From a virus, in IMG/VR virus record IMGVR_UViG_3300031227_000289, positions 1-28,862 of that record: a stretch of DNA of 28,862 nucleotides, one strand, 5' to 3'. Shown piece after piece: positions 1,417 to 19,734 of this stretch. How positions within the stretch are numbered: position 1 is the first letter of the stretch; each line of letters begins with the position of its first letter. Position numbers and translations under genes: made by a program. The notes below the pieces were generated by a model that did not search any database, was not told the DNA's origin, and was given only the letters and a program-made list of their open reading frames with translations.

Positions 1417-2022
1417 ATGGTAGATACAGAAAATTACACTGGCGCGGATTGCTCAGGAAGTTCAGGAGGTTCGAACAGGGTTTTGACTTTGGCGAATATT
1501 GGGACCACAAAGCCAGGTGGATTTTTAGTTTATGTGAGTGGGTTGGCTTTGAGTTTAACAACAGAGTATACTGTGGATCATAACAACACCGGAACAGAGA
1601 TCACATTCTTAAATGGCATGTGGGATGATATGACAATCGTTGTGAGTTATTACCAAAGCGTAGTATCAAGTCTTTCAACAGATTTTGTTAATGGGCCAAT
1701 AGCAGATTTTGGAGTTTCAGTGGTTAGAACTCCTGTAACAACAACAACAAATTTTCATGGAGATAAAATTTATACTGATGGGACCGATGCAGCAATGGAG
1801 GTTGTTTTTGATACCTATAAGGAAAGCCATAATTTAGACAAGGCAGGATTAACCAAAGTTTATGATGCTAGAATATTTATAAAGCCAGATGCAACATTAA
1901 ATAAATATGACAAAATAACTTATGATTCCAAAGTTTATAGGGTTGAGGAAGTGAGCATTAGGAATTTTGATGGAACAACTGTTTTTTATGTGGCTGGGTT
2001 ATTTTACTTAGAAGATGAATGA
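1417..2022 (+). CDS. head-tail adaptor (neck) protein with an N-terminal beta domain
   Basis: About 201 residues from the ATG at 1417. An earlier in-frame ATG at 1387 would overlap the previous gene and adds nothing conserved. Residues about 1-90 form a beta-rich domain with the signature EYTVDHNNTGTEITF, which recurs in the product of 3484-4131. The C-terminal half (VFDTYKESHNLDKAGLTKVYDARIFIKPD, split here as VFDTYKESHN and KVYDARIFIKPD) looks like the small barrel of phage head-tail adaptors. Position supports this: it directly precedes the gp10-like gene and overlaps its start by 8 bases, the usual adaptor, gp10, tail-terminator, tube order. It would sit on the portal and open the channel to the tail. 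Confidence 0.55.
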   Translation: MVDTENYTGADCSGSSGGSNRVLTLANIGTTKPGGFLVYVSGLALSLTTEYTVDHNNTGTEITFLNGMWDDMTIVVSYYQSVVSSLSTDFVNGPIADFGVSVVRTPVTTTTNFHGDKIYTDGTDAAMEVVFDTYKESHNLDKAGLTKVYDARIFIKPDATLNKYDKITYDSKVYRVEEVSIRNFDGTTVFYVAGLFYLEDE

Positions 2023-2470
2023 GATTAAAGAAAAGATTGAAAGGGCCTTGCCAAGAATTGCATTAAGGATGCAAAATGAGTTAATGATTGCTGCGCCGGT
2101 AGATACAGGCAGATTAAAAAATTCTATTAAAGTAAGATCAGATAGTGATGGGATAATTATTTGGATGGTGGATTATGGAAGATTTGTAGAGTTTGGATGC
2201 TTTTTTAAAGACAGTATTCTTATAAAAACAAAGAAAGGAAGCAAGAAATTAAAGGATTTGAAAATAGGAGAATTAATATGGACTGGAAAAGAATACAAAA
2301 AATTAATCCAAAAAGAAAAAATGGAGATTGGATATCCAATAAAAAAGATTATGATAAAAACTAAAAATAAGAAATTAGAAGTCACAGAAGACCATCCAAT
2401 CTGGACAAATAAAGGATGGAAGAAAGCAGTGGAGTTGAAAAAGGGAGATAGAATAAGAAATGGTTTTTAA
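2015..2470 (+). CDS. gp10-like head-tail/tail completion protein, N-extein plus N-terminal intein half
   Basis: Residues 1-61 are the N-terminal part of an HK97 gp10-like protein (AAPVDTGRLKNSI, then YGRFVEFG). At Cys62 (codon 2198) the sequence becomes an intein N-terminal half: block A runs CFFKDSILIKTKKG to KDLKIGELI, and block B is TEDHPIWTNKGW with the conserved TxxH. The frame stops at 2470 right after block B, where an endonuclease domain would begin. The matching C half, with the rest of gp10, is in the overlapping gene 2460-3419 in the +1 frame. Protein splicing would yield about 133 residues, the usual gp10 length. It needs either trans-splicing of two polypeptides or a +1 frameshift at TTTTTAA. 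Confidence 0.85.
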   Translation: MNEIKEKIERALPRIALRMQNELMIAAPVDTGRLKNSIKVRSDSDGIIIWMVDYGRFVEFGCFFKDSILIKTKKGSKKLKDLKIGELIWTGKEYKKLIQKEKMEIGYPIKKIMIKTKNKKLEVTEDHPIWTNKGWKKAVELKKGDRIRNGF

Positions 2471-3200
2471 AAATGGGAATGTACCTTGGAATAAAAATAA
2501 GAAGGGAGTTACAGAGGCTTGGAATAAAGGTAAGAAATGTCCTCAAATAAGTAAAGCACTTATGGGAATAAAAAGACCAGATTTAGTGATAAGGAATAAA
2601 AAAAATAGGAAAGAGAAAATAATATTGAAATGTTTATGTGGAAAGGAGTTTTTTGTTAATCCTTCAAGAAAAGATACTTCAAAATATTGTTCACAAGAAT
2701 GTTATAATAAATTTACAAGTCATACAAGAGCAAAAGGAAAGCATTGGAAGTTATCTAAAGAAACAAGAAAAAAGCAAGGATTACATCAAGTTGGAGAAAA
2801 AAACCATCAATGGAATGGTGGATATTTTAGAGGGAAATATATTGGGATTCCACAATCAAAAGAGTTCGCAAGAAGAATTTTTAAAAGAGATAAATATGCA
2901 TGTCAAATTTGTGGAGATATTGGAAGAAAAGCAAAATTAAACGCACATCATTTAAATTCTGTTGACAAGTATCCAAAACAGGCTGGAGATATAAATAATG
3001 GTATTACTCTTTGTGAAAAGCATCACCAAGAATTTCATAAAAAATATGGATATGGAAAAAATATTAAGAAACAATTTGAAGAATTTATAACAGAAGAAAT
3101 TTGTGACATAAAAACCATTCTTATGAATAAATCAACAATTTATAACTTGACATTAGAAGGAGAAGATACTTTTTATGCAAACGGAATTTTAACGCACAAT
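2198..3200 (+). other. intein encoded in two overlapping frames
   Basis: The element spans from Cys62 of the first frame to the terminal Asn247 of the second. It sits in the conserved EFGT motif of the gp10-like protein, between Gly and Thr. Splicing blocks A, B, F and G and an HNH endonuclease are all visible. The break between frames falls in a TTTTTAAAAA run at 2464-2473. Removing one base, or a +1 slip on TTT-TAA, would give one continuous protein. Confidence 0.8.
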
Positions 3201-3419
3201 ACGCCGCCACACATAATTAAAGCTAAACCTGGAAAAGTTTTACATTGGCATAAAACAAAGGGAAGAACTCAACATAATCATCCACATAGTAAAGAAATGG
3301 CCAAAGATGCTTTTTTTGCAAAAGAGGTTCATCATCCAGGATCAAGACCGAATCCTTTTATTAGAAATACAATTAAGAATCAATTACAAAAAATAATAAT
3401 TGAGGAAATTAGCAGATAA
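2460..3419 (+). CDS. HNH homing endonuclease, C-terminal intein half and gp10-like C-extein
   Basis: 319 residues. Residues 1-40 carry NUMOD3-like DNA-binding repeats (VPWNKNKKG, AWNKGKK). Residues 58-81 have a CxC...YCSxEC zinc motif. Residues 148-193 are an HNH nuclease (CQICG, NAHHLN, NNGITLCEKHH). Residues 227-247 are intein blocks F and G (IYNLTLEGEDTFYANGILTHN is 21 long; its ends are IYNLTLEG and GILTHN), ending in the His-Asn pair needed for splicing. Thr248 (codon 3201) is the +1 extein residue. Residues 248-319 finish gp10 (TPPHIIKAKPGKVLHW, then RPNPFIRNTI). The ATG overlaps the upstream stop; a GGGAG at 2443 is 12 nt away, a weak ribosome site. Expression by independent initiation or by frameshift is unresolved. 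Confidence 0.85.
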   Translation: MVFKNGNVPWNKNKKGVTEAWNKGKKCPQISKALMGIKRPDLVIRNKKNRKEKIILKCLCGKEFFVNPSRKDTSKYCSQECYNKFTSHTRAKGKHWKLSKETRKKQGLHQVGEKNHQWNGGYFRGKYIGIPQSKEFARRIFKRDKYACQICGDIGRKAKLNAHHLNSVDKYPKQAGDINNGITLCEKHHQEFHKKYGYGKNIKKQFEEFITEEICDIKTILMNKSTIYNLTLEGEDTFYANGILTHNTPPHIIKAKPGKVLHWHKTKGRTQHNHPHSKEMAKDAFFAKEVHHPGSRPNPFIRNTIKNQLQKIIIEEISR

Positions 3420-3421
3420 GC

Positions 3422-3436
3422 AACAATCTTTAAATA
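3422..3436 (+). promoter_or_regulatory. late-type promoter AACAATCTTTAAATA
   Basis: An AACAAT element (BRE position) precedes TTTAAATA at 3429-3436. It lies in the first gap of this region, just after the stop at 3419. The predicted transcript start is near 3457, leaving a leader of about 27 nt (with GCGGC and GGATATCC) before the ATG at 3484. The same 15-base pattern occurs at four other places in the window. Confidence 0.7.
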
Positions 3437-3483
3437 GTTTAGAGATTTTAAAAAACTAGCCAAGCGGCAGGATATCCAAGAGG

Positions 3484-4131
3484 ATGACATTAAACATACA
3501 ATCAATCAAGCAAGAGCAAGTAGTATTTCTAAGAAACAATGATATTTTTACAACCACAGTTCGAGGAGTAACAACTGCAAATGCGACAGGGACTCTTTCA
3601 GGAACAAAGGTTATAACTATTTCTAGAACAAATGTAAAAAATATTAGGACCATCACGGTTGCAGGAGTTTCAAAAGCTTTGGGCACAGATTACACAGTTA
3701 ATTATAATCATGCAACAAGTTGTATTATTACTTTTGGAGCAAATCAAACAGGGGATTATATTGTTTCTCACGATTATGGATCAGATCATATTTTTCCAGA
3801 TTTCCCAAGAGATGATTTAACAATTGCCTCTTACCCAAGAATTGCAGTAGATATTTTGAATGTGGGGATTGATGCTTTTGGAATCGGAGGGGAGAGTTTT
3901 ATTTCTAATGTTGCTTTTACAATAGTAGTTTATGCAGATGCTACGGATGAAATAGATGGATATATTCAAGCAATCAAAGCACTTTATGTTGCAGCGCCAA
4001 AAGACTTTTATTATTTAAAATTTATTAAACCAACTTTGATCGGGCCCACAATTAATAGCCCGGACAAAAAGGATGAAATTATGTCAAAGAACATAGATCT
4101 CCTTGGAATGTTTAGTGTGGATAGTGCTTAA
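3484..4131 (+). CDS. tail terminator / tail completion protein with N-terminal beta domain
   Basis: 215 residues. Residues about 30-95 form a beta domain with DYTVNYNHATSCIITF and YIVSHDYG, clearly like the N-terminal domain of the product of 1417-2022. The C-terminal part (RIAVDILNVGIDAFGIGG, then FTIVVYADATDEIDGYIQ) fits the small ring-forming tail terminator family that closes the tail tube under the neck. It lies between gp10 and the tail tube gene, separated from the tube only by a homing endonuclease and a small basic gene. The ATG follows AAGAGG directly, so the ribosome site is poor; its own upstream promoter suggests a separate transcript. Confidence 0.55.
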   Translation: MTLNIQSIKQEQVVFLRNNDIFTTTVRGVTTANATGTLSGTKVITISRTNVKNIRTITVAGVSKALGTDYTVNYNHATSCIITFGANQTGDYIVSHDYGSDHIFPDFPRDDLTIASYPRIAVDILNVGIDAFGIGGESFISNVAFTIVVYADATDEIDGYIQAIKALYVAAPKDFYYLKFIKPTLIGPTINSPDKKDEIMSKNIDLLGMFSVDSA

Positions 4132-4132
4132 A

Positions 4133-4600
4133 ATGAAACAAAAAATAACAAAAAAAAGATTGGAATATTGGAATAGTTTAAAAGGAAAAATGCATTCTAA
4201 AAAACACAATGTCAAAATCAGTAAAACAATGAAAAAAATGTTTAAAAAAGGGGAATTGAAAATTACAGGTGCAGCACAACAATACCATAATAATCCAAAA
4301 AACCATCACAGATATATTGATGGAAGAAGTTACAAAAAAAGTCCATATAGGTATGGGGATGATTGGTCCGCAATAAGAATGTTAATTTATATAAGGGATA
4401 ATTTTACTTGTCAGGAATGTGGGATGAATATGCATGAATCTGAAAAGAAGTTTAATTGCCCCTTACATATACACCATAAAACTCCATTTTTACAATCATT
4501 TGATAATTCATTGAAAAATTTAATTACTTTATGTAAGAGTTGTCATTTAAGTGTTGAAAATAAAATCAGATTTTTAAACAAAGAGGTGGATACAGCATAA
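4133..4600 (+). CDS. free-standing HNH homing endonuclease
   Basis: 155 residues from the ATG at 4133, two bases after the tail terminator stop; the in-frame ATG at 4103 would overlap that gene by 29 bases. The N-terminus is basic and NUMOD3-like (SLKGKMHSKKHNVKISK). The nuclease domain is complete: RDNFTCQECG, HIHHKTP, then NLITLCKSCH, with paired CxxC zinc ligands and the His/Asn/His set. Genes like this sit between structural genes and spread by cutting virus relatives that lack them, so it is probably not needed for virion assembly. The domain resembles those at 2460 and 19222. Confidence 0.85.
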   Translation: MKQKITKKRLEYWNSLKGKMHSKKHNVKISKTMKKMFKKGELKITGAAQQYHNNPKNHHRYIDGRSYKKSPYRYGDDWSAIRMLIYIRDNFTCQECGMNMHESEKKFNCPLHIHHKTPFLQSFDNSLKNLITLCKSCHLSVENKIRFLNKEVDTA

Positions 4601-6450: not shown

Positions 6451-7522
6451 TAATTTTAAAATAGAAGTTCCAATTAAAATAACTGGAGACAAAGGAGGAA
6501 AGAAAGTAGGAGAAAGTATAGCAGAGCAAATAAAAAAATCATTGGGATCAATTGGAATTGGAAAAGGAAAACCAGAAGCAGGAGGTGCAGGAGGTGCAGG
6601 AGGATTTAGTGGAAAAGCAGGATTAAAATTTGCTGGAATTTTAGGGGCCATATTGGGAGTTTTGGATTCAATAAATTTTATATTAAAACCAATTTTAAGT
6701 TTATTTAAAGTAATTTTAATGTTGTTATTTTTACCTTTGATTCCGATTTTAAAACCAGTGATGCAAGGATTGGCAGCATTTATAAAATGGTTTGCACCGG
6801 TAATGAGAAACGCAGGGGTATTAATGGAAAAGATTCATAAAGAAATTGTAAATTTTATTACAGCTTTGGTATTAGGTGTGTCAGGAATTTTCAAAGGAGT
6901 GTTTGAGGCACTTGGAGCAGGATGGGATATGATTAAAAATGCTGGAAAATTTATTTGGGATAATATTTTAATGCCAGGATTTATGGTGTTGGAAGATTTA
7001 GGAGTTAAAATTTGGGAAGTAATTAAAGAATTGTTTATAAGTACAATAAGTGCGACAGAACACGTTTGGGAATATATTAAATCATTATTTGAAGGAATAA
7101 TTATGGTTGGGGTTGATCTTTGGGATTGGTTTAAATCATTATTTGAAGGGACAATCAACGTTGGAGTTGAGTTTTGGGATTGGTTTAAAGGATTATTTAA
7201 AGGAACGATTAGCGTCGCCTCAACAGTTTGGAATTGGTTTAAAGGATTATTTGGAGGATTTAAAAAATCAGATAATGATGAAAAATCAGATAATGATGAA
7301 AAATCAACAAGTGTTACAGATGCGATTATAACCCCTCAAGGAGTAGTTCATACGGATCCAAATGATTTTATAATTGCAACAAAGAATCCTGCTGGATTAG
7401 GAGGATCAGTCACAATTAATATAAATAATCCTATTGTAAGGCAAGATACAGATATTAAAAAAATAACAAATCAAGTAAGTCAAGCCCTACAAAGACAAAT
7501 GAGTGGGAGAATATCACAATGA
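6443..7522 (+). CDS. tape measure protein (short)
   Basis: 359 residues from the ATG at 6443 (MANNFKIEVPIKITG), which overlaps the end of the chaperone extension; the in-frame ATG at 6374 lies within that extension. A Gly/Ala-rich linker (48-60) is followed by hydrophobic segments at about 62-78 and 80-103 that could insert in the membrane, then amphipathic sequence. Residues 190-275 are 18-residue tandem repeats built on WxWFKxLF. Two copies of KSDNDE follow, then a C-terminal domain. Tape measure length sets tail length; 359 helical residues imply a tail of roughly 50 nm, short for a siphovirus. This is family knowledge plus arithmetic, not measurement. Confidence 0.8.
   Translation: MANNFKIEVPIKITGDKGGKKVGESIAEQIKKSLGSIGIGKGKPEAGGAGGAGGFSGKAGLKFAGILGAILGVLDSINFILKPILSLFKVILMLLFLPLIPILKPVMQGLAAFIKWFAPVMRNAGVLMEKIHKEIVNFITALVLGVSGIFKGVFEALGAGWDMIKNAGKFIWDNILMPGFMVLEDLGVKIWEVIKELFISTISATEHVWEYIKSLFEGIIMVGVDLWDWFKSLFEGTINVGVEFWDWFKGLFKGTISVASTVWNWFKGLFGGFKKSDNDEKSDNDEKSTSVTDAIITPQGVVHTDPNDFIIATKNPAGLGGSVTININNPIVRQDTDIKKITNQVSQALQRQMSGRISQ
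7010..7267 (+). repeat. 54-bp coding repeats in the tape measure gene
   Basis: Units begin at 7010, 7064, 7118, 7172 and a partial unit at 7226. Each encodes 18 residues (for example LWDWFKSLFEGTINVGVE and FWDWFKGLFKGTISVAST). Adding or losing a unit would change tail length in steps. The last three units are most alike, which suggests recent duplication. Confidence 0.85.
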
Positions 7523-7704
7523 CAAAAGAAATAATCAAACAATTAAAAGAATTAAATAAAACACTTAGTTCAGTTAGAACATTTACAATTGCAGAAGCAC
7601 AATTAATGAAAAGTTTATGTATAGAAATTCAAAAACAAGGTAGAGATATTCAAAAAATTAAATTAAAAATGGAGGAAGAAGATGACGCCAACGATCGGGA
7701 ATAA
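7519..7704 (+). CDS. small coiled-coil protein after tape measure
   Basis: 61 residues, mostly helix-forming with heptad-like spacing (IIKQLKELNKTLSSV, then IEIQKQGRDIQKIKLKMEEE). ATGA overlaps the tape measure stop and its 3' end overlaps the next gene, so all three are translationally coupled. The acidic C-terminus (EEEDDAND) is also rich in GGAGGAAG that serves the next start. Function unknown; a tail-tip assembly factor is possible from position. Confidence 0.6.
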   Translation: MTKEIIKQLKELNKTLSSVRTFTIAEAQLMKSLCIEIQKQGRDIQKIKLKMEEEDDANDRE

Positions 7705-10168: not shown

Positions 10169-10183
10169 ACAATATTTAAATAA
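10169..10183 (+). promoter_or_regulatory. late-type promoter AACAATATTTAAATA
   Basis: TTTAAATA at 10176-10183 lies about 25 nt upstream of the ATG at 10204 and is preceded by AACAAT. Transcription should begin at or next to that ATG, giving a leaderless mRNA for the tip genes. No ribosome binding site is seen in the gap, which agrees. Confidence 0.75.
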
Positions 10184-18992: not shown

Positions 18993-19229
18993 ATGGATAA
19001 AATTATACGAAAACCTGATCCTTCTAAAAGAAAGAATATCCACGTTGTAACTTTAAAGAAAGTTGAGAATTTTATGAAAGAACAATTAGAACCGATTTTT
19101 AAATCTGAAATTGTTAAGCAAATTGCAGTAGATTATAACTCTTTGAATGTTGCTTTAGAAATGCTTCCAATAAAAATTGATGATGATGGAAGAATATATT
19201 TAAAGAAAATGGGAGGACAAAATGCCTAG
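18993..19229 (+). CDS. small protein, unknown function
   Basis: 78 residues. The N-terminus is basic (IIRKPDPSKRKNIHVV), the middle helical (LKKVENFMKEQLEPIFKSEI), the end beta-like (LPIKIDDDGRIYLKKMGG). The arrangement resembles a small regulator but no clear helix-turn-helix is seen. First gene of an operon, probably leaderless. The 3' end carries GGGAGG, the ribosome site of the HNH gene, and overlaps it by 8 bases. Confidence 0.55.
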   Translation: MDKIIRKPDPSKRKNIHVVTLKKVENFMKEQLEPIFKSEIVKQIAVDYNSLNVALEMLPIKIDDDGRIYLKKMGGQNA

Positions 19230-19734
19230 AGGAATTTATAAAAGAACAGCATTATGTAGGAAAAAATTAAGTGAAGCTAGAAAAGGTAAAAGTCCTTGGA
19301 ATAAAGGATTAAGTGGAGAAGAGTATTCCAAACATTATGAAGAGGGACATCCAAAAGGGATGAAAGGTAAAAAAAATAAGTGGGGGAATCATTCACAAAA
19401 ATCAAAAATAAAAATAAGTGCTTATCAACAAGGGATTAAGATAGATGAATGGAATGGTTTTAAAATAAGTACAAATAGATGGTTAAAAACCACAGCAAAA
19501 TATCAAATATGGAGAAATGCAGTTTATTTAAGAGATAATTTTACTTGTAAAAATCCAAATTGTGAATTTTGTAATAATGAAATTGGAGTGTTTTTACATG
19601 CTCATCATATCAAACCATTAAGTTTATTTCCTGAATTAGTTTTTAAGATAAGTAATGGAATAACATATTGTAAGTATTTTCATCTTAAATCAGGGTTGCA
19701 TAAAAATATGCGACAGGAGATTAAAAATTTTTAG
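19222..19734 (+). CDS. HNH homing endonuclease, possibly decayed active site
   Basis: 170 residues. The N-terminus has NUMOD3-like repeats (RKKLSEARKGKSPWNKG), then a helical region, then the HNH domain: RDNFTCKNPNCEFC, HAHHIKP, ISNGITYCKYFHLK. The second zinc pair should be CxxC but reads CKYF, so one cysteine is lost and activity may be impaired. It sits between a small gene and a helix-turn-helix gene that has no normal start codon, which suggests insertion at the 5' end of that gene. Confidence 0.75.
   Translation: MPRGIYKRTALCRKKLSEARKGKSPWNKGLSGEEYSKHYEEGHPKGMKGKKNKWGNHSQKSKIKISAYQQGIKIDEWNGFKISTNRWLKTTAKYQIWRNAVYLRDNFTCKNPNCEFCNNEIGVFLHAHHIKPLSLFPELVFKISNGITYCKYFHLKSGLHKNMRQEIKNF

Follow-up and report, generated by a model that had tools for sequence, protein, structure and literature searches.

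A predicted natural split intein bearing an HNH endonuclease in a phage-type gp10 neck gene

The gp10 locus and its reading frames

The DNA analysed was a stretch of 28,862 bases (IMG/VR virus record IMGVR_UViG_3300031227_000289, positions 1 to 28,862; the whole stretch is called the window below), in which a gp10-like neck protein, an intein and an HNH homing endonuclease are encoded by two overlapping open reading frames (ORFs). ORFs were read in the sequence and scanned with Pfam, PHROG and TIGR profiles; by their profile matches, terminase, portal, capsid, neck and tail genes are encoded in the window. The first ORF (2015-2470, plus strand; 151 amino acids) comprises the N-extein, residues 1-61 of gp10, followed by the N-terminal half of the intein (IntN) from Cys62 to the stop. 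The second (2460-3419, plus strand; 319 amino acids), which is +1 relative to the first, comprises the HNH endonuclease, the C-terminal half of the intein (IntC) and 72 residues of gp10. ORFs and profiles thereby bear out an original prediction, made from the letters alone, that the N-extein and intein blocks A and B lie in the first frame, and the HNH, blocks F and G and the C-extein in the second. The features are as follows (E, expectation value; nt, nucleotides).

2015..2197, plus strand: N-extein, residues 1-61 of an HK97-gp10-like neck/tail-completion protein (PF04883, E 1.2e-7; phrog_5, E 9.5e-8)
2198..2467, plus strand: IntN, 90 amino acids, with Cys1, block A, block B TEDH and a KKGDRI end; stop TAA at 2468-2470 (Pfam Vint/Intein_splicing)
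2443..2447, plus strand: GGGAG, a possible Shine-Dalgarno sequence 12 nt before the second ATG (from the sequence; duplex energy -8.4 kcal/mol)
2460..2470, plus strand: overlap of 11 bases, ATGGTTTTTAA, with the start codon of the second ORF atop the stop of the first
2460..3092, plus strand: predicted HNH homing endonuclease, leading portion of ORF two, with PWNK/WNKG repeats and zinc-finger CxCGK..CSQEC (PHROG HNH, PF13391)
3093..3200, plus strand: IntC, about 36 amino acids, with blocks F and G and the end FYANGILTHN, including the penultimate His and terminal Asn (TIGR01443)
3201..3416, plus strand: C-extein, 72 amino acids, from Thr+1 to the end of gp10; stop at 3417-3419 (aligned with the intein-free locus L009)

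The Pfam matches of IntN were weak (Vint/Intein_splicing, E 2e-4 and 7e-4); on the second ORF, TIGR01443 (intein C-terminal splicing region) scored 27.2 bits against a cut-off of 15.6. The HNH part, with its core at about 2901-3044, matched known phage HNH nucleases (phrog_1271, E 8.7e-20) and exceeded the PF13391 cut-off. Of the NUMOD3/HNH label first given to this part, HNH is supported by PF13391 and PHROG; NUMOD3 rests on the PWNK/WNKG repeats, which are visible by eye, no Pfam NUMOD3 match having been found. The 11-base overlap and the insertion point in the EFG/T motif had both been called correctly, the latter lying between G and T of VEFGT. Joining the exteins in the sequence gives the expected spliced length of 133 residues, and the joined form matched the PHROG tail-completion/Neck1 family phrog_5 with E 5.4e-15, as against 9.5e-8 for the N-part alone.

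With a TAA stop of its own at 2454-2456, the second frame opens no earlier than 2457. The GGGAG at 2443..2447 doubles as codons of the conserved KKGD motif and is therefore weak evidence for a Shine-Dalgarno sequence. No match to an intron (group I included) or other RNA element was found with Rfam at 1900-3600, and neither intein-half ORF gave a match when solved structures were searched by sequence.

Split alleles in related viruses

Further alleles were found by scanning viral contigs with both halves. Four distinct split alleles of gp10 share one insertion site, namely that of the window, that of L002, L003 and L004 (a single virus from three metagenome assemblies, with identical junction), L008 and L015. 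When the relatives were searched for continuous as against split forms of the intein, 4/4 alleles proved to be split, each into two ORFs that each hold an extein part and an intein part. In all four the split lies at the canonical endonuclease site and the ATG of the second ORF overlaps the IntN stop. A single frame running IntN-HNH-IntC, as in a cis-splicing HNH intein, is absent, since the first frame stops at 2468 and the three relatives are split too.

The junction is ATGGTTTTTAA in the window and ATGGTAA in L002, L008 and L015, and the frame relation is +1 in the window and -1 in the other three; the distance that separates the ATG from the GAT codon of the KGD/RD motif is 10, 14, 14 and 17 nt across the four alleles. 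The conserved junction feature is ATGGT, the start codon and beginning of the second codon, with no common slip site. All four alleles have C1, TEDH, HN and Thr+1, and the full set of splicing residues (C1, TxxH, HN, C/S/T+1) is found across the halves. PF01844 was above cut-off in the HNH part of L008 and L015. Annotated phages gave matches only to relatives of the HNH nuclease and of the gp10 N-part, none spanning most of either half, and bacterial and archaeal genomes gave only more distant matches to the region of the HNH end and IntC, many of them in Flavobacterium and archaea.

Selection and empty sites

Pairwise ratios of nonsynonymous to synonymous substitution rates (dN/dS) were obtained by the Nei-Gojobori method over N-extein, IntN, HNH, IntC and C-extein. 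They were 0.04-0.52 in all five segments, at dS from 0.41 to saturation; between alleles the ratio was 0.11-0.26 for IntN and 0.14-0.50 for the HNH part. Purifying selection acts on each extein and each intein half, and the split, present in four alleles, is kept by selection in more than one genome.

Among about 80 related gp10 loci, most (about 70) are free of the intein; position +1 at the insertion site is occupied by T in 64 of them and by S in 6. L009 is one such empty site, with VEFG/SAPH. Between the window and L002, IntN is 83% identical with a proportion of synonymous differences (pS) of 0.32, and the exteins have pS of 0.71 and 0.89, the N-extein being 66% identical. This single pair is only suggestive of movement of the intein between viruses after their gp10 genes had diverged.

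A second case in a helicase gene

A related virus (the record behind L035, IMG/VR 3300033153_008196) has a gp10 without intein (L196:862-1125). In the same virus an SF2 helicase gene carries a different intein of like layout.

L195:1-1281: helicase-IntN ORF, ending in FRSKNAN and the stop (Pfam ResIII and HINT)
L195, from start ATG 1271: HNH-IntC-helicase ORF (Pfam HNH and helicase C-terminal domains)

The ORFs overlap by 11 bases, ATGCCAATTAA, in a +1 frame relation; there is no good slip site, and a clear Shine-Dalgarno sequence, AGGAG, stands 5 nt before ATG 1271. We lean slightly towards the reading that mobile split inteins with an independently translated HNH fused to IntC form a recurrent class, which occupies two unrelated sites (gp10 and helicase).

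Proposed mode of action

The gp10 element is probably a natural split intein that still bears its endonuclease, with the endonuclease translated from its own start in fusion with IntC, and gp10 restored by trans-splicing. Among the three explanations that had been offered (a naturally split intein with the endonuclease on the C-half, a +1 slip on TTT-TAA and a one-base error in a homopolymer), the first is the best supported by the sequences. From these we infer that two proteins would be made, gp10(1-61)-IntN starting at 2015 and HNH-IntC-gp10(62-133) starting at the overlapping ATG (2460), the second probably by coupled termination and re-initiation at that ATG. IntN and IntC would associate to form one HINT fold, and trans-splicing between Gly61 and Thr would yield the 133-residue neck protein, with IntN and HNH-IntC set free. 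The endonuclease would then cut intein-free gp10 at or near VEFG/T, and repair would copy the whole two-gene element (homing); HNH-IntC, once released, would act as the homing enzyme by itself or together with IntN.

The start/stop overlaps and the L195 Shine-Dalgarno sequence lean towards separate starts for the two halves. In the window 20/43 gene pairs overlap (by 1-29 bases), and overlapping starts are therefore ordinary for this virus. L327, a free-standing relative of the HNH part, starts at its own equivalent ATG.

Several observations weigh against trans-splicing of separately translated halves. In the gp10 alleles the Shine-Dalgarno sequence of the second ORF has either little strength or poor spacing, three of these alleles have a -1 slippery heptamer (A_AAA_AAA or U_UUA_AAA) among their last five IntN codons, and the helicase case rests on one contig. 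With a basic IntN (+12 to +18) and a neutral to acidic IntC, the charge polarity is opposite to that of classic split inteins; the reversed polarity may serve the same step of electrostatic capture. AlphaFold prediction of the read-through protein (seven sequences) gave a predicted local distance difference test score (pLDDT) of 47 and was uninformative.

Alternative explanations

Programmed ribosomal frameshifting, which would fuse the two frames in translation into a single, ordinary cis-splicing HNH intein, is unlikely. The window does have GGT TTT TAA, a possible +1 slip site, and the heptamers before the stop in L002 and L008 (A_AAA_AAA) and in L015 (U_UUA_AAA) match a -1 relation. However, the direction differs between alleles, so that the slip site would need to have been re-invented; the proposed +1 slip on TTT-TAA is inapplicable to the three -1 alleles, and one shared recoding site is disfavoured because frame direction and ATG distance differ between alleles. 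Heptamers of the form X_XXY_YYZ occur in genes of this genome at about 1% per position, or about 5% over five codons, and the three alleles that have them are mutually related, hence not independent observations. L195, being +1 with a clear Shine-Dalgarno sequence and no good slip site, also speaks against recoding, and the stop-overlapping ATG that is kept in all five elements (four gp10 alleles and L195) would have no role under frameshifting.

Less probable again is that the genes are simply in pieces, the endonuclease having split gp10 without splicing, so that the neck protein would consist of two chains or the gene would be decaying. Endonuclease insertions are known to split phage genes without splicing, as in nrdA of phage Aeh1 with MobE, but in the gp10 element all intein catalytic residues are conserved, dN/dS of IntN and IntC is low, and no second gp10 copy was found in the window.

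A sequence or assembly error of one base, hiding a continuous intein in the window, would find its site in the T5A5 run at the junction, but this explanation is close to refuted, three other alleles (one of them in three assemblies) being split alike, and error is excluded as the source of the split set because these relatives differ from the window in junction sequence and frame relation. On this comparison the arrangement is a real, unusual form of split intein and not a sequencing error.

Comparison with known inteins

Phage inteins were scanned with the pattern FxANGIxxHN, which gave at least 80 intein C-halves, most of those listed being cis inteins. The split inteins listed have a short IntC ORF that opens about 23-61 codons before the FxANGI motif, and L226, L232, L233, L237, L257, L276, L278 and L282 are fractured split inteins of three ORFs, in which the halves flank a separate ORF that in several of them resembles an endonuclease. 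No endonuclease-IntC fusion was found among the other split inteins listed in the scan, in which some loci were truncated at the end of a contig or of the retrieved stretch. Judged by sequence, the gp10 and helicase elements are a distinct variant, with two genes and an endonuclease-IntC fusion.

The phage split inteins of 'fractured genes' (gp41-1, NrdJ-1 and relatives; Dassa et al. 2009) are reportedly split at the endonuclease position and associated with a homing endonuclease gene. The gp10 element resembles them in lying in a phage gene, in its split at the endonuclease position and in its associated endonuclease; it differs in that endonuclease and IntC share one ORF, 2460-3419 (two genes), whereas in fractured genes they are separate ORFs (three genes), with the endonuclease ORF free-standing between the halves. 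In cis HNH inteins of phages, such as that of the portal-type protein of L053 and the first intein of the L027 tape-measure gene, HNH lies between blocks B and F, as in the gp10 element, but IntN, HNH and IntC are in one frame. The naturally split DnaE inteins (Npu, Ssp), of about 100/36 residues, are encoded by two genes and have Cys1 and a terminal Asn. They share the split position, the two genes, Cys1 and the terminal Asn with the gp10 element; unlike it, they lack an endonuclease, their genes are unlinked, and their half-charge polarity appears reversed in comparison.

Recognised inteins fall into cis inteins that embed an endonuclease, mini-inteins and split inteins (PMC7765530), the last mostly divided at the endonuclease position (PMC11923092). 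In mycobacteriophage methylases, an out-of-frame HNH insertion named the 'ShiLan domain' is believed to have its own translation start (PMC11855218). An HNH with its own start, in a frame other than that of the host gene, resembles the gp10 element; in contrast to the latter, the ShiLan domain has no intein splicing domains and leaves the host frame open along its whole length. The open-licence literature yielded no description of a natural split intein whose IntC carries a fused endonuclease.

Out-of-frame HNH genes were also seen in cis inteins. In 18/48 cis inteins listed in the scan (L213, L215, L216, L234, L235, L241, L243, L245, L247, L251, L253, L260, L261, L265, L271, L272, L273 and L281) the HNH gene is nested out of frame between the two intein halves, with the intein frame open throughout. 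The same holds for L066, L069 and L070, and several of the whole set are clearly in terminase genes. Four of the nested HNH frames were tested and matched PF13392 (HNH_3) with E values of 4e-14 to 4e-17. The second tape-measure intein of L027 (L027:6616-7647) likewise has an HNH ORF (6819-7604) nested in another frame, the HNH of the first intein being in frame. Nested out-of-frame HNH genes in cis inteins look widespread and possibly undescribed.

Evolution and significance

The two-gene form could have arisen either from a three-gene fractured intein by loss of the endonuclease stop codon, or by entry of an HNH gene into a mini-intein, with reading into IntC from its own start. The second route fits because the free-standing L327 starts at the equivalent ATG; the data are undecided between the two.

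Split inteins are usually viewed as endonuclease-free or as three-gene 'fractured' forms. The two-gene form would link cis HNH inteins to fractured genes in a simple way, and would show how a split element could still home in one piece. If the recurrent class is true, a split intein need neither lose its endonuclease nor keep a third gene, and the endonuclease would be made in step with the C-extein half. The gp10 element may also offer a new split-intein pair for protein ligation. The frame and start used for the HNH endonuclease of a phage intein become directly testable, and many other phage inteins hold an out-of-frame HNH.

Other observations in the window

Two more free-standing HNH endonuclease genes lie at 4103-4600 and 19222-19734, the former overlapping the end of a gene at 3484-4131. 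The sequence TTTAAATA occurs at 10175, 18964 and 26235, in each case exactly 29 nt upstream of a start (10204, 18993 and 26264). This placement resembles that of archaeal TATA boxes of leaderless genes, and by this analogy the host may be an archaeon; in contrast, the terminase of the window is nearest to those of Flavobacteriia phages (47%).
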